Below, in pieces: positions 2,861 to 34,710 of a stretch of 34,710 nucleotides of DNA. Numbering within the stretch: position 1 is the first letter of the stretch; the number at the start of each line of letters is the position of its first letter. Source of the DNA: Candidatus Methanomethylophilaceae archaeon (GTDB lineage: Archaea; Thermoplasmatota; Thermoplasmata; Methanomassiliicoccales; Methanomethylophilaceae). The translations under genes were made by a program, and so were the position numbers. The notes under the pieces were generated by a model, which saw only the letters and a list, made by a program, of their open reading frames with translations, made no database searches and was not told where the DNA came from. Location of the stretch: positions 1-34,710 of the forward strand of contig JAGBGN010000055.1 in NCBI GenBank assembly GCA_017935945.1, in the 5' to 3' direction.

Positions 2861-3893
2861 CGGTGGAAGCCATCGCCTCGAGCTTCTTCCTCTCCTTGAG
2901 CTCCTTGGCGACCTTCTTGCTGAGGACCCTCTCGTGGATGATCCTCATGTACATCGCATCGTGCTCCAGGAGGGGCGATGTGGATATGACCGTGGCGTTG
3001 GGCTTCATCTCGATGAGTGCCTCCGCCATGGCCTCGAACTTGAGGTCTCCCCTCTTTATGGGGGTGAGCCTCCTCTCGTTGCCGTCGACGTAGTCGACAC
3101 CGGCGAACGCGGTGTGGATCTGACCGTTGCTGTAGCGCTCCACCTGTTCGAGCACATCGAGGAAGTCGTCGACCTCCAGGAGCGATCCGTTGGTACGGGA
3201 GTGGTGGTGCGAGAAGTTGAGTACGGGTGTGACGCCCTCGATGGCATCGCACAGGTCGAGGACCTGGTCGAGCGATCCGAAGACATCCTGCTGCCCGGTG
3301 ACCTCGACACCCAGCCTGGGTGTGAGTCCGTTGCCCTGCCACCAGTCCATGAGCATGGCGACGTTCTCGTAGATGTTGTTCTCGATGTCCTCCGCAGGAG
3401 TCTTGTCATCGTAGAGTCCGAGGCTGGTGACGACGATGTCGCCGTCCATCGCGTTCATCATGAGCGCCGCATGCCTGATGCTGTTGAGGCAGACCTCGGT
3501 AAGTTCGGTGTTGGATCCCAGGTCCATGTAGTAGGGTGTGTGAATCGACATGTTGACGTCCAGCCTCTTCGAGACCTCTCCGATAGTGTAGAGTTCCCCG
3601 AAGGTGTCTGCGATACCGGAGGGCATGTAGACGAGGTCGTCATCCTCCTCGATGGGTTCGCTGGGGTCGCTGATGGGCTCTCCGTCCCTGAGGATCTCGA
3701 CGACGAAACCCTCCTCGATCTCGGGTATCGTCAATCCTACTTCCTCATCGTCGGGGCATCTGGTGTAGGCACCTGCCCTGACCATCTGGATCTCGAGGGC
3801 ACTGAGGCTGAGGTTGTGGACATCCTCAATGCCGTCCTGGAGTGTACGACCTTTGCACGAGAGCGGAATACCTGCGGGACCGAACCTAATCAT
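2853..3893 (-). CDS. Endonuclease-IV-like / xylose-isomerase-like TIM-barrel protein
   Basis: 346 aa. It begins MIRFGPAGIPLSCKGR and keeps motifs of the AP-endonuclease-2 barrel: SIHTPYYMDLGS (116-127), LGVEVTGQQDVFGS (194-207) with the metal-ligand Glu, NFSHHHSRTNGS (226-237), and HTAFAGVDYV (260-269). These give the His/Glu set of a trinuclear metal site. A roughly 50-residue acidic segment (about 45-100) between the first strands is longer than in bacterial Nfo. The family contains true AP endonucleases and sugar isomerases; DNA repair is the likely role but not proven. TATAAAA at 3923-3929 (read as TTTTATA on this strand) sits about 30 bases before the ATG. It is followed by the coupled hxlB gene. 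Confidence 0.75.
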   Translation of the reverse strand: MIRFGPAGIPLSCKGRTLQDGIEDVHNLSLSALEIQMVRAGAYTRCPDDEEVGLTIPEIEEGFVVEILRDGEPISDPSEPIEEDDDLVYMPSGIADTFGELYTIGEVSKRLDVNMSIHTPYYMDLGSNTELTEVCLNSIRHAALMMNAMDGDIVVTSLGLYDDKTPAEDIENNIYENVAMLMDWWQGNGLTPRLGVEVTGQQDVFGSLDQVLDLCDAIEGVTPVLNFSHHHSRTNGSLLEVDDFLDVLEQVERYSNGQIHTAFAGVDYVDGNERRLTPIKRGDLKFEAMAEALIEMKPNATVISTSPLLEHDAMYMRIIHERVLSKKVAKELKERKKLEAMASTGE

Positions 3894-7525: not shown

Positions 7526-8641
7526 ATGTCGAAGATCATATCCATACTGGCCCTCATGATCGTCCTGGTCTCAGGTATCATACTGGTGTACGAATCCCCC
7601 TCCGATAACACGGATGAGGGGGAAGGAGACGGACCCGAACAACCTCCGGTCCCGGAAGGTCCCGAACTGCCGAATGGAATCGGATATGATTCCATCGGAC
7701 ATACCCTATCCGCAGACGGAGCGGTCGAATGGATTGTAGAGGATGTGTTCGCACCGTTGTACATCTGTCGCGAGCCCTATCAGCCCCATAGGGAGGTGGC
7801 ATCCGAGATATCACTCAATCCCGGAAAGTACTCCGTCACTGTAACCGGGGAGACCTTCGAGATCACCGTTCCCGGAGATATCACGAGGACCTTGGACTGG
7901 AAGTACGATGATGGTTCCATGGTCCACGGATTATCCATCGAACTGAAGATGGACATCATGGATTTCATTGCAGACACTGAGGAGAACCGTGCCTGGAACT
8001 CCTCTGTCTTCAAGCACTCGTTCACGGACCTTCCCCGTCTGGTACGTGTGGATGACACCATACGTTCCCTCGAGCAGATGCTGAGGTCCGAGTACTTCGG
8101 AATAGGAGGCATCGTCGACAACGGACAGTCCTATGCTGATTTCCTTGCAGCCTTCGTCCAGAAGGCGACGGACTATCCGAGTTCAGTGGATGGCCATTCC
8201 GGGGAGTTCGATTACGGCATATGGGGTTCGGCAGAGTACTGGGCTCTTCCCTTGGAGACGTTGTACTACAAGATCGGCGATTGCGAGGATACCGCCGCAC
8301 TACTCTGCTCCCTGTACGAGGCGGCAGGTTACAGGAGTGCCATGGGAGGGCAATCCGGCCATGTCTTCGCAGGGGTCTCGATAGAAGGGTTCACGGAAGT
8401 GACGACGGAGAGGTTGAAGGAACTGAACATCAGCTACTACAGACTAGCCGAACGCACACTCGATGTGGATTACGGTAGTGGACCAGAATCAGTGACGTTC
8501 TACGCTGTGGAGACCATACGCGAGCAGAATCCCGTCGGATACCTCGCAGGTGGGGACCAGCATTTCGACAAGAACACCATGTGGGGTTGGGCAGGCTTCT
8601 ACCCTTACGGGGCCGTGGAAGGGATCCAGTCGTCATCGTAA
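7526..8641 (+). CDS. Membrane-anchored transglutaminase-like protein (paralogue of upstream gene)
   Basis: 371 aa. It opens with an uncleaved or lipoprotein-like hydrophobic segment (IISILALMIVLVSGIILVY, residues 4-22) and an acidic/proline linker (about 25-50) in place of the zinc ribbon of its neighbour. The C-terminal transglutaminase-like domain keeps the order GDCEDTAALL (C253), SGHVFAGV (H279), VTFYAVETI (E329). The shared middle motif SAEYWALPLETLYYKIGDCED aligns with TEYWMYPQETIHLGSGDCED upstream, so the two are tandem duplicates. The ATG directly follows the previous TGA; the 3' end overlaps the convergent beta-lactamase-fold gene by 37 bases. Function not known beyond the fold. Confidence 0.75.
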   Translation: MSKIISILALMIVLVSGIILVYESPSDNTDEGEGDGPEQPPVPEGPELPNGIGYDSIGHTLSADGAVEWIVEDVFAPLYICREPYQPHREVASEISLNPGKYSVTVTGETFEITVPGDITRTLDWKYDDGSMVHGLSIELKMDIMDFIADTEENRAWNSSVFKHSFTDLPRLVRVDDTIRSLEQMLRSEYFGIGGIVDNGQSYADFLAAFVQKATDYPSSVDGHSGEFDYGIWGSAEYWALPLETLYYKIGDCEDTAALLCSLYEAAGYRSAMGGQSGHVFAGVSIEGFTEVTTERLKELNISYYRLAERTLDVDYGSGPESVTFYAVETIREQNPVGYLAGGDQHFDKNTMWGWAGFYPYGAVEGIQSSS

Positions 8642-20275: not shown

Positions 20276-23200
20276 TCAGACCCTTTCTATGGCCTCGATT
20301 ATGCGGGAGATCTCCTTGTCGGGGTTCTTCCACATACCCGGGGTCCAGACCCTGTGGATCTTCCATCCGCGGGACTCGAGGTACTTCTGCCTGTGGTAGT
20401 CCCTCTCCCTGGTGGATGTGGAGAGTTCGTAGAGCCTGCTGTCGCATTCTATGCCGAGGATGAAGCGTCCGTTCTGCTTGACACCGATGTCGATCTGGTA
20501 TCCACCGATTCCGACGTTCCTCTCGACGCTGTATCCCTTCCTGGACAGGATGTTGTACACCTTGTCCGCGATCTTCCCGCCACTGTAGTCCTCCTTGTTG
20601 TTCCAGCGGTCGTTTCCGAAGGAGTGGAGGATGGTGTTGGCGAGCTCCCTGTCGCCGGCGCTGACGGCATCGGCGTACTGCAGGTACTTCTTCAGGATCC
20701 TCGGGCCCTCGTTCTTGGTTTCCTCCACCTGGAGGTCGCTGGGGTCGAAGGACTTCACGATGAGGATCTTCTTCTTCGCACGGGATATGGCGACGTTGAG
20801 ACGGTTCTCACCTCCGCGGTTGTTGAGCCATCCGAACCTCTGCATGAGCTTGCCCTCGGAGTTCTTGGCGTATCCGATGGAGAACATGATCACGTCGCGT
20901 TCATCTCCCTGGACACTCTCGATGTTCTTGATGAAGAGACCCACGTCCTCTCCGTTGTCATGCCTCTTCATCTCCTCTGCGACCATCTTGCCGAATGTCA
21001 GGTCCTTCCCGCATTCCTCATCCAGCACATCGTTGATCAGGTCCCTCTGGGAGCTGTTGAACGTGATTATGCCCACGGTCTCGTTGTTCTTCCTGTTGAG
21101 GAAGAACTCCTTCAGGAGGGCCACGATCTTGTCGGCCTCGGCCCTGTTGGATTTGTCCTCCCACAGTCCGTCGACCTTGAACACCTCTATCGGGGGTTTC
21201 TCGGGTTCGATGACGTTGGGTGAGACGTACAGTCTGCCGTTGTAGAACGCATAGTTGGAGAACGCTATCAGCTCCTCGTACCTGGCCCTGTAGTGGAAGT
21301 TCAGGAGGATGGAGTCGTACCTGGCCCTGGCGAGGTCGAGGAGGGACTCCTCCTCGAGTGCGGCAGAGACGACATCGTCCAGGTCGTCCTCATCGCTCTC
21401 GTACTCTATTCTCCCCATTCCGAGGCTGGATGGACGGAGCTGCTTGTGGTCGCCTGCGACGACGACCTTCTTTGCACGGTATATGGACGGGACACCCTTC
21501 TCCACGTACATCTGGGATGCCTCGTCGAAGATGAGCAGGTCGAAGATACCCATCTCGAGCGGGAGGATCTCGGACACCACCTCGGGTGTGAGCAACCAGA
21601 CACGGACCCCCTTGAAGAGCTCGTATCCGTAGCGGTTGATGAACTTGTTCAGGTTCCATTTCCTCTTGGACTCGATGATCCTGTTGATGTCCCCGCGCCT
21701 CTTGGATTCGGTGATGTACTTGAGGTTCTCCTGGAAGACCTCCTCGACCTTGTCCCTGGTCAGGTCCCTCTTCTCGGTGATCTTCCTGTCCATGTCGGCT
21801 ATTATGCTGTCGAAGTCCCATATCTCCTGCATTATGTCCTTGTGGGACGCATCGAACTTCTGGAGGTGGTCGTTGAGGATCCAGTTGTAGATGCGCTCGT
21901 TGCTGTCGGAGAACGGGAGCTTGGTCGCTGCGGAGACGCCGAGGATGTCCTCACCGTACATCTTCTCGGAGGCGCTCATCTTGTTGTACACGGTGGACCT
22001 GGCGGAGTATGTCTCGTATCCGTCGAGGGCATCGAACATCTTGCGGGGGTCGTCCATGATCGCGTTGACGGTGTGCTCGTTGTAATGGGAGAAGTACTTG
22101 TCCGCCATGGCGGTGGTCTCACGGGAGACCTTGCCCTTGGAGAACAGCTTGCCGATGAATCCCTTGGACTTGAAGTCCAGCATCTGATGCTCCAGGTCCA
22201 GCAGGTCCGCCTTCATCTCCCCGATGTTGTACTCGGACAGGTCCGCCTTCATCTGGGTCATCCAAGGGTACTTCGAGACGAGTTCGTTGTACTCGTTGAA
22301 GTTCTTCATCAGGACCGGGTCGTTGAACTTCCTGTGGAGTTCCTCGATCTCAGGGTACTTGAGGTCCATGAGGGAGGGTTCGATGTTGTCCTTGAGCGTC
22401 TTGTACTCCTCGAACTGGCGTGGGTCGTTGACGTCGAGCCACCTGTCCATCGAGTAGAGCTTGTACGGCTCGATGCCGAACTCGCACGGACTGTACATGA
22501 CATCCGCGATGTTCTCCAGGAGCATGACGTCCTCGTCGATGCTGGTGGATATGGCGTCGAGGTCTGTACCGGACTTCTTGGTGTTGCAGGAAAGCATCTC
22601 GTCCAGCTGTTTGTAGAACAGGTCCTTGTTACCGACATCGTCGATCATCAGGCAGTACCTGGCGAGGTTGCCGAGACGGGAGTAGACGACATCCAGCGCG
22701 GTCTTCTTCTCGGACACCATGAGGACCGTCTTACCCTTGAGGACCGCGGAAGTGATGAGTCCGGTTATGACCTGGGACTTGCCAGTGCCCGGGGGACCCT
22801 GTACGACGATCTCGTCACCATGCTCTATGGCCGTGAGGATGTTCTCCTGGGCGCTGTTGAGCGAGTTGATGTAGACCAGGTCGTGTTCGGATGCCTCCAT
22901 CCCCTTCTTGCGGATCTCGGACTCGGTGAGCGGCGCGGGCAGGTCGGACAGGAAGTCGGTCTTGTTCAGGTCTGCGACCAGGTCGTTCAGGATACCGTTG
23001 ATCTCCCTTCCCGCAAGCATGCCGTCGAAGTCCCTCTGGATGGAACTGGAATACGTGGGGTACTTCCCGAGCATGACATTGGGTACGACCTCCATGTCCC
23101 CCGCGAGGTACTTGGGGAACTCCCCGGCCTTGTAGTCGATGAAAGGTGTGGGCAGGCTGAACTCGTACTCTATGTTGAGTCCGCTGTCCTTGTAGAACGC

Positions 23201-23995
23201 CAGGAGGTCGCTCATGAACGTCTCCCCGGAGTAATCCTCGAGGATGTTGTTGGGGAGGGGTTTGTTCAATCCCGTGGATTTGATGTATGCCAGTATGAGC
23301 GTGTTGTTGTACATGGCATCACGGGAGTTGTCCAGCGTGAGTGTGATCGTGCGGGCGTCCTTCTCGAGGATGACCGGGAACAGCGCGAGGGGTGCACGGA
23401 TGTCGAAGTCCTCGTTGGGCATCTTACCCTGGACGAACGGGTATCCGATGTACAGGTCGTACTGTCCCTTGTCCCTCAGCTCCCTGTTGACCTCACGTAT
23501 GATCTCGTTGAGGTGCTTGTACGTCCTCATGGCCTCGGGACTCTTGGCGGAGTCGCACAGCTTGAGTGACCTCTTCCTTCCGAAGAGGAGTCCCATGACA
23601 TCCACGTCGGTGAGCGTCATGAGGTCGAAGGTGTTTTTCCTGGAGATCTTGCCTTGGAACAGTAGACGGTTGCCCCTTCCGATGTTGATGAGCTTCTTCT
23701 CCAGTTCCCTGAGCGTGCGTGCGGCTTCCTCGTCGATGTTCGATCCGTTCGCCGCAGTTATGGCGTATTTGCGTGTGATGTTCAGGAAGTCCTCGCCGTA
23801 GAGTTCGACGAAACGCTGTCCGACTCCGACGATGGCCGAGAAATCCTCGACTTTGGTGGGTACACGCTGTGCCATCTCCATGAGGGCTTCGTCGGAACAG
23901 ACCGTAGGTATCCTTCCGTTCGACATCCTGCGTTCCGTCCTGAGGCTCTCCCTCAATTCGTACAGCTCGCTGTAAAGGTCGTTCTCCAGTCCCAT
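20276..23995 (-). CDS. HRDC - DUF4011 - SF1 helicase - Vsr/MTES-type nuclease fusion
   Basis: 1239 aa. Residues about 11-77 look like an HRDC domain (RIPTVCSDEALMEMAQRVPT followed by AIVGVGQRFVELYGEDFL). Residues about 90-340 resemble DUF4011 (LINIGRGNRLLFQGK). The SF1 motor follows: Walker A GPPGTGKS (400-407), Walker B LLIFDEAS (820-827), GDHKQLRPS (848-856), LNFHYRARYEELI (898-910), ESVQGDERDVIMFSIGY (1026-1042) and NRLNVAISRAK (1064-1074). A 400-residue helical insert separates Walker A and B. The C-terminal 100 residues are a PD-(D/E)xK/Vsr-like nuclease: YQIDIGV (D1169), ILGIECD (E1183, D1185), then RERDYHRQKYLESRGWKIHRVW. Such DUF4011/MTES proteins are often in defence islands; here it is alone. 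Role inferred: DNA processing or antiviral defence. Confidence 0.85.
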   Translation of the reverse strand: MGLENDLYSELYELRESLRTERRMSNGRIPTVCSDEALMEMAQRVPTKVEDFSAIVGVGQRFVELYGEDFLNITRKYAITAANGSNIDEEAARTLRELEKKLINIGRGNRLLFQGKISRKNTFDLMTLTDVDVMGLLFGRKRSLKLCDSAKSPEAMRTYKHLNEIIREVNRELRDKGQYDLYIGYPFVQGKMPNEDFDIRAPLALFPVILEKDARTITLTLDNSRDAMYNNTLILAYIKSTGLNKPLPNNILEDYSGETFMSDLLAFYKDSGLNIEYEFSLPTPFIDYKAGEFPKYLAGDMEVVPNVMLGKYPTYSSSIQRDFDGMLAGREINGILNDLVADLNKTDFLSDLPAPLTESEIRKKGMEASEHDLVYINSLNSAQENILTAIEHGDEIVVQGPPGTGKSQVITGLITSAVLKGKTVLMVSEKKTALDVVYSRLGNLARYCLMIDDVGNKDLFYKQLDEMLSCNTKKSGTDLDAISTSIDEDVMLLENIADVMYSPCEFGIEPYKLYSMDRWLDVNDPRQFEEYKTLKDNIEPSLMDLKYPEIEELHRKFNDPVLMKNFNEYNELVSKYPWMTQMKADLSEYNIGEMKADLLDLEHQMLDFKSKGFIGKLFSKGKVSRETTAMADKYFSHYNEHTVNAIMDDPRKMFDALDGYETYSARSTVYNKMSASEKMYGEDILGVSAATKLPFSDSNERIYNWILNDHLQKFDASHKDIMQEIWDFDSIIADMDRKITEKRDLTRDKVEEVFQENLKYITESKRRGDINRIIESKRKWNLNKFINRYGYELFKGVRVWLLTPEVVSEILPLEMGIFDLLIFDEASQMYVEKGVPSIYRAKKVVVAGDHKQLRPSSLGMGRIEYESDEDDLDDVVSAALEEESLLDLARARYDSILLNFHYRARYEELIAFSNYAFYNGRLYVSPNVIEPEKPPIEVFKVDGLWEDKSNRAEADKIVALLKEFFLNRKNNETVGIITFNSSQRDLINDVLDEECGKDLTFGKMVAEEMKRHDNGEDVGLFIKNIESVQGDERDVIMFSIGYAKNSEGKLMQRFGWLNNRGGENRLNVAISRAKKKILIVKSFDPSDLQVEETKNEGPRILKKYLQYADAVSAGDRELANTILHSFGNDRWNNKEDYSGGKIADKVYNILSRKGYSVERNVGIGGYQIDIGVKQNGRFILGIECDSRLYELSTSTRERDYHRQKYLESRGWKIHRVWTPGMWKNPDKEISRIIEAIERV

Positions 23996-30650: not shown

Positions 30651-31001
30651 TCACTGCATGGGCATGTTGCCCATTGCCGCGTTGATGGTCTCCTGGAGCA
30701 CGGTGTACCTCTCCTTCAGGGAGTTCTCCTGGCGCTCCAGGCTGTTGATCCTGACGCCCATCATCTCGATGGATTCGTCGATGTCCGCCTTGAGTGCGTC
30801 GACATCGTCCACCTTGATGAGGAGGGATCCAGCGTTCTTGTACACTGTTCCGCTGCTCTTGTCCAGTTCTTCCTTGGTCCTGACGAGCTCGCGCATCTGA
30901 CCGTCCATCTGCGCCTTCTGGGCGGAGACGGCCTGAAGCTGCTGCTGGACCTGCTGGAACTGTGTGATCTGGTTCTGGAGCTGGGGACTGATTCCGTTCA
31001 T
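30651..31001 (-). CDS. pfdB: Prefoldin beta subunit
   Basis: 116 aa, two long coiled coils joined by a beta hairpin. The N-terminal coil LQNQITQFQQVQQQLQAVSAQ, the conserved hairpin GTVYKNAGSLLIKVD and the C-terminal coil to the Met/Gln tail are characteristic of archaeal prefoldin beta. With alpha it forms the jellyfish-shaped hexamer that passes unfolded proteins to the thermosome. It is the last gene of the exosome superoperon. The start overlaps the pcc1 stop by 4 bases. Confidence 0.94.
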   Translation of the reverse strand: MNGISPQLQNQITQFQQVQQQLQAVSAQKAQMDGQMRELVRTKEELDKSSGTVYKNAGSLLIKVDDVDALKADIDESIEMMGVRINSLERQENSLKERYTVLQETINAAMGNMPMQ

Positions 31002-31237
31002 GGTCTCACTCTGGTTATGTTACCGATGTTCTCGATGATTCTGATGCATTCCAAGTAGGAATTGAGGGCAGCCCTCATCGCCGTTGTGTCGGTGGCGGTT
31101 ATCTCGATCTCCGCGCACCCGTCCCCGTACGAAATTCTGGATTCCGTACGGGGCAACTCTCTCTCCAAATCGGGGGAGATCGTGGGCACGGTTATATCGG
31201 CGTCGTCGCCGTCTATCCTGAGGGTTGCCTTGAGCAT
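30998..31237 (-). CDS. pcc1: KEOPS complex subunit Pcc1
   Basis: 79 aa. The fold is two strands, helix, strand: KATLRIDG, SYGDGCAEIEITATD, then the long helix TTAMRAALNSYLECIRIIENI that forms the dimer interface. This matches Pcc1, the dimerisation subunit of KEOPS, which makes threonylcarbamoyl adenosine at position 37 of tRNAs. Its place between rpoP and pfdB is the usual one in archaea. Confidence 0.9.
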   Translation of the reverse strand: MLKATLRIDGDDADITVPTISPDLERELPRTESRISYGDGCAEIEITATDTTAMRAALNSYLECIRIIENIGNITRVRP

Positions 31238-31240
31238 CGC

Positions 31241-31372
31241 TCAATCGGATTTCAGGACCTTCTTCACAGGAGGCCTCTCCTTGAAGAAGATCTTAGATCC
31301 GCACTTCTCGCACTGGAGTCCCAAAGAGTTAACGTTCCTGACGGGCTCGTTACACTTTGCGCATCTGTACAA
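31241..31372 (-). CDS. rpoP: RNA polymerase subunit P (Rpb12-like), TTG start
   Basis: 43 aa, too short for many gene callers. It reads YRCAKCNEPV, then LQCEKCGSKIFFKERPPVKKVL. The two CxxC pairs make the zinc ribbon, and the KERPP motif is diagnostic of archaeal RpoP. There is no ATG: an in-frame TGA precedes the TTG at 31370-31372, which has AGGTGAT a few bases upstream. The gene sits between L37Ae and pcc1, its standard position in archaeal genomes. It is an essential small subunit of the RNA polymerase assembly platform. Confidence 0.92.
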   Translation of the reverse strand: MYRCAKCNEPVRNVNSLGLQCEKCGSKIFFKERPPVKKVLKSD

Positions 31373-31392
31373 TCAAATCACCTACGGCAATC

Positions 31393-31644
31393 TCACTGCT
31401 CGGAAACCTGGGAGATCTCTTTCTTGGCCTTGGGGCTGTATGCCTCTGCCGCGAATTTGGTCTCGCAGTGCTTGCAGAACCAGATTCCAGAGCTGATCCT
31501 CTTGACGGACATGTGGTGGCAGACGGGACACTCGTGTTTTGCCTTCTGCTTTGCCTCGATGGTCTTGATCCTGTTGCGCACGATAACTCCGTACCTTGCG
31601 CCGAACCTTCCTGCGCTACCTGCCTTCTCTGTTCTCTTTGCCAT
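31393..31644 (-). CDS. rpl37ae: 50S ribosomal protein L37Ae
   Basis: 83 aa. The start KRTEKAGSAGRFGARYG and the zinc ribbon CPVCHHMSVKRISSGIWFCKHC are typical of archaeal/eukaryal L37Ae (L43e) of the large subunit. GGTGAT precedes the ATG. It is embedded between rrp42 and rpoP in the exosome superoperon. Confidence 0.96.
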   Translation of the reverse strand: MAKRTEKAGSAGRFGARYGVIVRNRIKTIEAKQKAKHECPVCHHMSVKRISSGIWFCKHCETKFAAEAYSPKAKKEISQVSEQ

Positions 31645-31649
31645 TTATA

Positions 31650-32423
31650 TCACCCGATGATTTTTCTGATTTCCGCACCCTTCTCTACGGCTCTGTCCAG
31701 ACAGAGGCTGAGGTCATCCAGTGTGATGGATCCGCAACCGCCTTTCTGCATCGCCCTGAAGTTGCCGTTGTCGTCGGTTGTGACAGTCAGGCGGGCCGAT
31801 GAAATCTGTTCTTCGTCGAAATTTGGGTCTACTATTAAATCGTTTCCTATTTTGACCTCCGTCACCGAAATCGGCAGGCATGTGACGGGCAGGGGTTTGT
31901 TCTCTCCCTTTCCGTACTGCTCTCCGGGGATGATGGCGGTCTTGAGTGCACACACTGCTGCGAGGTTGGCTGCGTCGAACAGGTTGCCGTCGTAGTCGAG
32001 GGCGTAGATATCGACGAAGCACATCCATACCTCCTCTCCGGGTACGATGCACAGCTGCTCGACATCGACCATTCCAGATTCACGGATTCCGCGGTCGACG
32101 ACACGTGCGAGCTCGATGGCATCCTCTCCGGGGGGACCGGACTCGAATGTGGGGTGTGCCATGGGGATGAGCTCCGCACCGGTGGTGAGGACTCCGCTGG
32201 TGGGGGTGTCTCCGAAGGGGGTTCCGGGTATGATCTTCACTCCCGCGATGACCTCTGTCTTGCCCAGTTTGACCCTGGCGGATCCATCTGCACTCTCGAT
32301 GCAGTTGGTCTCGACGGAGATCTTCCTGAAGTCTGTGGGGCTGCGCTTGTCGACCCTTGTACCCTCTGCGAGGAGGTTCATGATGTGGTCGCGCTTGATC
32401 TCGGACATGATGGGGTTACTCAT
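31650..32423 (-). CDS. rrp42: Exosome subunit Rrp42
   Basis: 257 aa from ATG 32423, preceded by GGAGG and overlapping the rrp41 stop by 8 bases. It is an RNase-PH-fold protein: [66 protein letters not shown] and [12 protein letters not shown]. It is the non-catalytic partner that alternates with Rrp41 in the hexameric ring of the archaeal exosome (3'-5' phosphorolysis and tailing of RNA). Confidence 0.94.
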
Positions 32424-33162
32424 CTGCTCCCTCCTTTGCGGGTTTGGCGGAATAGCGCTTCTTGAGTGCATCCTTCTGGATGTCGTAAACCTGGTGGCAT
32501 GCATCCACTGCGAGCTCGATGGCGTGGTCGAACTCCTCGCGGGTCATGTTTCCATCCATCTGGAGGAGCACGATCTCGTCGGTCGAGGGGACGATCGCGA
32601 TGGGCACATCGGCCTGTCCGTAGTTGTCTTCCTCCTTGTTGAGGTCCAGGAGGACATGTCCGTCAGCCTTTCCGGCTGCGATGGCGGGGACGATGTCCCT
32701 CATGGGGATTCCTGCGTCGGCGAGTGCGACGGATGCTGCGGTGAGTCCTGCGCACCTGGTTCCGGCATTGGCCTGGAGGATCTCGATGTAGACATCGATG
32801 GATGCGCGGGGGTAGAGCTCGGTGAGGACGACCTTCTCGAGGGCCTCGGAGATGATCTTGGAGATCTCGATGGACCTTCTGTCGGGACCGGGCCTCTTCC
32901 TGTCGCTGACGGAGAAAGCCTGCATGTTGTACTTGCACTGGATGATCGCCTTGGTGGGGTTCTGGAGGTGCCTGGGGTGACACTCCCTGGGTCCGTACAC
33001 GGCTGCAAGGACCTTGTTCTTACCGATCTCGACATAGGCGGATCCGTCGGCGTTGTTGAGGACGCCAGCCTCGATCTTGATGGGCCTGTGTTCCTCGGCG
33101 GTCCTGCCGTCGATCCTCATGCCGTTCTCGTCAACTAAAACCATATCTGTGTGTCCGCTCAT
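32416..33162 (-). CDS. rrp41: Exosome subunit Rrp41 (catalytic)
   Basis: 248 aa from ATG 33162; a GTG two codons earlier is possible. It has the RNase-PH fold with the RNA- and phosphate-binding loops [14 protein letters not shown] and [22 protein letters not shown]. The catalytic region [20 protein letters not shown] carries the conserved Asp of active archaeal Rrp41. It degrades RNA phosphorolytically in the central channel. The start lies inside the end of rrp4, so the three exosome genes are translationally linked. Confidence 0.95.
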
Positions 33163-33164
33163 GG

Positions 33165-33875
33165 TCACTCATCCCCCTCGTCGTAATCATCATCCTGGGG
33201 TATCCTCTTCTCGATAAACTCTTTGATTTTGTCAGTAAGGTTGCCGGACTGCGCCTTCTCCTCGATCATCATGATCGCCTGGGCGGCAACATCGGCGTTC
33301 TCGTCATCCCCATCGACCCAGATCATTCCGTTCTGTCCGACGGTTATGCGGCAGTCGGTCATGTTCTTCAGCATGGAGATCATGGAACCGCTCTTACCGA
33401 TGACCCTGGAGACCTTGGAGTGGGATATCTTGACGAGCCTTCCGCCCTCGATCCTCCTGAGTCCGGAATCCTTCATCGTGACGGATATCTTCCTGCTCTC
33501 GTCGACGGAGAGGACCTTGAGGATGACGACGTGACCGATACTGAGGTATCTTGATGTGTCCCCGAACTCGACCTTCCAGGGAACCTCGTTCACATGGAGG
33601 GGTGCGGGATAGGGGGCGTTGATGTTCACAAGCCAGTTGGAGGGTCCGATGTCCTCGATGACTCCGATGACGGTGTCACCAGAGGAGGGCATGTAGCATC
33701 CCCTGAGAGGGATGACTCCCACCGTGTTCTGGAAGACGTTCCTGACTCCCATGGCGCTGGCACGCACCTTGCCGTCGAGCACGTACGCGTTCTCTCCCGG
33801 TTTCATCCCAGATGCATCGAGGATGTCGCCGGGGACGACGATCTCACGCGTCTGTCTGGCGTTTCTCTTTTCCAT
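33165..33875 (-). CDS. rrp4: Exosome cap subunit Rrp4
   Basis: 236 aa in three parts: an N-terminal strand domain ([10 protein letters not shown]...GENAYVLDG), an S1 domain (about 70-140: [35 protein letters not shown]), and a KH domain ([33 protein letters not shown]). It ends with an acidic tail ([10 protein letters not shown]). It forms the RNA-entry cap of the exosome, giving poly(A) preference. It lies between SBDS and rrp41. Confidence 0.95.
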
Positions 33876-33900
33876 ATTATCACTCTTCTAAATGTAAGAT

Positions 33901-34593
33901 TCAAATCAGTTTCACGGTCGCAGTGCCCTTGGTCTTGTTCCTGAGCTTGTCCGTGATTTCAGTTATGAGTCCTGCGGGAATCTCCATGAGGCCTATCCAA
34001 GAACCATCTGCAGTCCACTCCTCCCTCTCGACGATCCCGTAGTGGACGATCTCGTCGAAGCAACGGCCGTAGTCCGATCCGTTGAGTTTGATGGCGATGC
34101 GGCTCTTCTCGAACCTGATGGGGAGGATGGGGCGCAGGAGTTTCATGGCCTCGTCGATCTCCTTGTCCAGGGGTTTGAAGGGGTCCACATGGAACTTGGC
34201 CTCCTCCAACGCCATCTGTATCCTGAGTGGGGGATGGGGCGTGCGGGTCTGTGGGTTGATTGCGTTCGCGGCAATGTATGTGATGACCTGTTGTCTCTTC
34301 GCGTCGAGCATCTCCTTGCGTTGCTCGGCTGTAATCTGGATCTCGCCTTTCTCGACGATCTTCCGTGCAATCTCCCCGATTTCATCGGTCCCGAAGGCCT
34401 CTTTGATCTTGTCTTCCGCAGGTCTGGTCCCCTTTCCGGCGTTCTTGAACACATCCTCGACGGCCATGTACTCGACTATGTCGAACTCCTTTCCTTTCTT
34501 GATGAGGTCGAACACGGCTGGATCTAGCAGTATCTCGAATGTCTCGCCATGGCTTTCCAGTCTGGCGGTGATCGCGTCGTCAAGGTTGACCAT
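33901..34593 (-). CDS. sbds: Ribosome maturation protein SBDS (Sdo1)
   Basis: 230 aa. The N-terminal FYSH domain (DDAITARLESHGETFEILLDP...FKNAGKGTRPAE), a helical middle (GEIQITAEQRKEMLDAKRQQVITYIAANAINPQTRTPHPP) and a ferredoxin-like C-terminal domain (LPIRFEKSRIAIKL) match the SBDS family. In archaea and eukaryotes it acts in late large-subunit maturation. Its ATG is 9 bases after the psmA TGA, with GAGGT between them, as in other archaeal proteasome-exosome operons. Confidence 0.95.
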   Translation of the reverse strand: MVNLDDAITARLESHGETFEILLDPAVFDLIKKGKEFDIVEYMAVEDVFKNAGKGTRPAEDKIKEAFGTDEIGEIARKIVEKGEIQITAEQRKEMLDAKRQQVITYIAANAINPQTRTPHPPLRIQMALEEAKFHVDPFKPLDKEIDEAMKLLRPILPIRFEKSRIAIKLNGSDYGRCFDEIVHYGIVEREEWTADGSWIGLMEIPAGLITEITDKLRNKTKGTATVKLI

Positions 34594-34602
34594 GTCGATA
34601 CC

Positions 34603-34710
34603 TCACAGCTTCTCGATGAGGGCGGAGACCTCTTCCTCGGAGAGCCTCTTGAACTTCTTGCCGATGTCGGCGACTCCGATCTCGACGGACTAGACCTTGG
34701 GTTTGTCCTC
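34603..34710 (-). CDS. psmA: Proteasome alpha subunit, C-terminal end, with an in-frame TAG
   Basis: Only the last 36 codon positions are in the window. They read EDKPKV, TAG, then 28 sense codons SVEIGVADIGKKFKRLSEEE...IEKL and TGA (34603-34605). The part after the TAG (34690-34692) resembles the C-terminal strand and helix of archaeal proteasome alpha subunits (a -VE-hydrophobic- strand, KKFKRLSEEE, final helix). psmA is the expected gene before SBDS, rrp4, rrp41 and rrp42. Either TAG is read through, as pyrrolysine in a Pyl-decoding archaeon, or the protein is shortened by 29 residues, or the base is an error. No other coding region here ends in TAG. Confidence 0.65.

Follow-up and report, generated by a model that had tools for sequence, protein, structure and literature searches.

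An in-frame TAG near the 3' end of psmA, the gene of the proteasome alpha subunit, probably reflects one mistaken base, a G>T change at the poorly supported end of a contig. The window (the whole stretch of DNA analysed, 34,710 bp) is a complete contig, C102, of a mixed-strain MAG of 136 contigs and 1.57 Mb (1.568 Mb). Among named records, Candidatus Methanomethylophilaceae MAGs come closest. The features at its right end are as follows.

34603–34710, minus strand: psmA 3' end, last 35 codons and TGA, truncated at the contig tip (TIGR03633, from the full-length copy on contig C28)
34690–34692, minus strand: in-frame TAG, where C28, which overlaps here, reads GAG (Glu208; contig comparison)
34395–34710: contig-end overlap with C28:15626–15941, 97.2% identity, 9 mismatches (contig comparison)
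33901–34593, minus strand: SBDS ribosome assembly factor gene (TIGR00291, 266 bits)

The minus strand of 34603–34710 translates to EDKPKV, a stop, SVEIGVADIGKKFKRLSEEEVSALIEKL and a second stop. The first-pass annotation had placed the TAG at 34690–34692, within psmA, with a continuation of 28 codons to a TGA ahead of SBDS. These coordinates and the count were confirmed: exactly 28 sense codons follow the TAG, the TGA lies at 34603–34605 and 9 bases separate it from the SBDS start codon (ATG, 34591–34593). One sign expected of a pyrrolysine-containing protein, an in-frame TAG with homologous codons continuing behind it, is present in the psmA of the window.

The conserved archaeal cluster psmA-SBDS-rrp4-rrp41-rrp42-L37Ae-prefoldin beta occupies 30651–34710 of the window on the minus strand. 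A helicase-like protein of 1239 aa (20276–23995, minus strand) is related to the anti-phage protein ProA/Hhe, below the NCBIfam cut-offs, and to PADLOC PDC-S37. The other end of the window overlaps contig C107 at 99%.

The TAG begins 18 bases from the tip of the contig and the changed base is the 19th. At this end the window is overlapped at 97.2% identity by the last 316 bases of C28, a contig of the same bin. There psmA is complete (236 codons, 236 aa), codon 208 is GAG and the product gives a full-length match to TIGR03633 (residues 6–233; 338.8 bits, curated cut-off 287.35), as well as a match to NF003075. Of the nine mismatches, six are synonymous, one is an R>K change, one is intergenic and the last, at 34692, is the G>T creating the TAG; among the other C102 variants are those at 34649 and 34666. 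Past the TAG, all 28 codons keep the PsmA sequence, with the R>K as the one change relative to C28. The TAG was not confirmed by an independent copy, as the overlapping contig reads GAG, and no third copy of the psmA locus was found in a pattern scan of viral contigs. Compared with the archaeal 20S proteasome alpha subunit (PsmA, TIGR03633; solved relatives 1PMA, 1J2P and 6HE8), the gene shows the full-length family match, the conserved C-terminal strand and helix, and SBDS and exosome genes as neighbours. It differs only in the TAG of the C102 copy, and the C28 copy does not differ at all.

According to an AlphaFold model, codon 208 lies in a loop ahead of the last strand (210–216) and the C-terminal helix (226–235), with a block pLDDT of 88–96 in the C-terminal region. 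The loss of the last helix upon termination at the TAG, as foreseen in the first-pass annotation, agrees with this model, and the last beta strand, likewise conserved, would be lost as well. A real nonsense allele would leave the strain with a PsmA of 207 residues lacking both elements. That TAG can still terminate in this organism is suggested by pylB (C81, 4035–5093, minus strand), which seems to end at TAG: its match to the family is already full-length by residue 341 of 352, and only 19 more codons follow in frame, running into pylC. Such an allele is nevertheless very unlikely, because the elements lost are conserved and confidently folded in the prediction, psmA is single-copy in relatives (its beta homologue aside) and the codons behind the TAG have retained their PsmA sequence.

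A survey covered 146 other genomes of the order. Strong psmA matches were obtained in 129, all of them free of internal stops. A TAG common to the orthologues, typical of methyltransferases and not required for stray ambers, was accordingly absent from the psmA of these 129 genomes. The tail of 28 residues aligned to the relatives: it is the genuine end of PsmA and is conserved, F221 being present in 111 of 111 rows. In the column of codon 208, 110 sequences (some genomes fetched twice, and one row being the C28 copy of the bin itself) held E 45, Q 24, D 15, K 13, A 8, G 3, R 1 and H 1. None of the 110 sequences had an aromatic residue there. A conserved pyrrolysine site in the Methanomassiliicoccales proteasome, to which the coexistence of pyl genes and an in-frame TAG is all that points, deserves practically no credence. 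It was refuted at the order level by the stop-free survey, by a column of sense codons only and by the GAG in the same bin. The description of the proteasome as a near-universal pyrrolysine substrate is consequently wrong within the order. What stands of the proposed pyrrolysine codon is the genuine PsmA tail and the presence of a pyrrolysine system in the bin; its extension to the whole lineage was not supported.

The quality of contig ends was assessed by comparing contigs all-against-all in 1.256 of the 1.568 Mb, the part covered by all bin comparisons and scans. Many exact end overlaps of 141 bases were found, a pattern that MEGAHIT leaves. Another 26 end-to-end overlaps, of about 130–1000 bases, were mismatched at roughly 94–99% identity, which indicates that the bin is a mixture of strains. 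The 232 coding mismatches in these overlaps comprised 179 synonymous differences, 52 missense differences and a single nonsense difference, the psmA TAG. Within 40 bases of a tip the numbers were 15, 5 and 1, the last again being the psmA TAG. As the tip mismatches are largely synonymous, most of them are probably real strain variation, and the idea that they are mostly errors was not supported. For the same reason, our confidence in an error at the psmA base was kept moderate. The nonsense difference does not fit this pattern, and an isolated error at a weakly supported tip appears to be its simplest source.

The first-pass annotation had proposed a search for pylTSBCD in the genome, and the genes were found. 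The bin carries pylS, pylB, pylC, pylD and ramA, and a tRNA-Pyl gene adjoining pylS was located with a tRNA-Pyl probe sequence (ARAGORN found no tRNA-Pyl); pylT, pylS, pylB, pylC and pylD thus occur in one genome. In addition, mtbB and two mtmB-like genes each contain an in-frame TAG. The mtbB product matches TIGR02368 when TAG is read as pyrrolysine, and the mtmB names were assigned by visual comparison of the sequences, NCBIfam giving no match. With the methyltransferases counted, TAG terminates no more than 9 of the 786 closed ORFs that reach 150 aa, which is comparable to the 1.6% of 'Ca. M. alvus' (PMC4153887). Full reassignment of TAG was not supported, as pylB and an ORF at C62:1610–2365 appear to be TAG-terminated. 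Because the machinery is present and TAG is rare as a stop, decoding of the psmA TAG as pyrrolysine is plausible provided that the base is correct.

An amber allele genuinely present in one strain is the main rival to an error, possible though rather unlikely. Codon 208 would have changed from GAG to TAG in one strain and be read by tRNA-Pyl, which would place pyrrolysine in the loop just ahead of the last strand; the change would be recent, near-neutral and tolerated through TAG suppression. Besides the pyl and methyltransferase genes and the scarcity of TAG stops, the range of residues tolerated at codon 208 is in its favour. Against it are the GAG of C28 and the position at the contig tip.

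Stray stops elsewhere in the bin bear on the same reading. Frames that were coding-like on both sides of a stop were scanned for and gave, apart from the methyltransferases, the following cases.

C4:2843–4006, minus strand: endA (tRNA-splicing endonuclease), TAG at 3260, in the contig interior
C48:8055–8759: NADH:quinone/Mrp-type antiporter gene, TAG at 8628, 131 bases from the contig end
C98:7127: TAG in a HIRAN protein gene
C133:1102: TAG
C73:6929: TGA in an SPFH protein gene, with an intact paralogue on C104
C122:17086: TAA in a DUF6198 gene
C64:8378: TAA

For most other TAA and TGA candidates, sorting by eye pointed to adjacent genes, with a Met no more than a few codons away; two further TAG matches (C101 and C38) were discarded as probably being in the wrong frame. 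At the endA site, Lys is found in 9 of 11 relatives of the genus, and no stop occurred there in 29 other genus genomes with endA. The antiporter site holds Trp (TGG) in 6 of 6 close relatives. Given these residues, both sites are suggestive at the sequence level and lend some support to an amber allele in psmA; the interior position of the endA TAG also speaks against a general explanation by contig-end error, and endA is a better pyrrolysine candidate than psmA. Enrichment of TAG among stray stops was considered as evidence of decoding and rejected, since TAA and TGA cases also occur (C122, C64 and C73), roughly in line with the codons one change away from each stop (57.6k for TAG, 24.2k for TAA and 23.7k for TGA). 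The counts are small and the stray stops not clearly TAG-enriched, so the presence of a stray TAG in this bin does not alone argue for decoding, and TAG not being specially favoured weakens the case for the amber allele.

Two known systems can be compared. In 'Ca. Methanomethylophilus alvus', 16 further pyrrolysine proteins were predicted beyond the methyltransferases, and ambers were argued to appear as stable mutations (PMC4153887). The present case shares the archaeal family, the pyrrolysine machinery, the rare TAG stops and a conserved gene with an in-frame TAG that is absent from its homologues. It differs in that the psmA TAG sits at a contig tip and is absent from the overlapping contig, and psmA is not among the pyrrolysine proteins listed for that organism (PMC4153887).

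If the psmA TAG were real, it would resemble the tRNA-His guanylyltransferase of Methanosarcina as a stray amber tolerated via tRNA-Pyl. Pyrrolysine reportedly arose in that enzyme by neutral evolution, in work by Heinemann and colleagues (PNAS, 2009). The protein itself was tested there, whereas for psmA even the base is unconfirmed.

An error at the contig end is the more likely explanation because of the position of the TAG, the GAG copy and the stray stops of the bin, which include TAA and TGA interruptions and are not TAG-specific. On the other side, the pyrrolysine machinery and the rarity of TAG stops make a tolerated amber allele plausible. The likelihoods given to the four readings are judgements, and that the base is an error, not an allele of a minority strain, is what we infer. 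The true codon 208 of the species would then be GAG (Glu) in an ordinary archaeal psmA, and the TAG would stem from one G>T within the last 19 bases, most likely introduced during sequencing or assembly at a tip with weak support. PsmA would be a normal subunit of 236 residues, its strand 210–216 and helix 226–235 being reached through a sense codon and without pyrrolysine.

In-frame stops near metagenome contig ends need overlapping contigs and reads before recoding is claimed, and this caution holds even where the decoding machinery is present. It is doubtful, though conceivable, that one uncultured Methanomethylophilaceae strain has a genuine psmA TAG, with pyrrolysine in a loop of the alpha subunit and a proteasome dependent on the pyrrolysine system. 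Were the amber real, proteasome assembly, and hence protein turnover, would be tied to pyrrolysine supply in that strain. Together with the TAGs of endA and the antiporter gene, it would show housekeeping genes acquiring TAG as a sense codon, a step toward a plain coding role for TAG.
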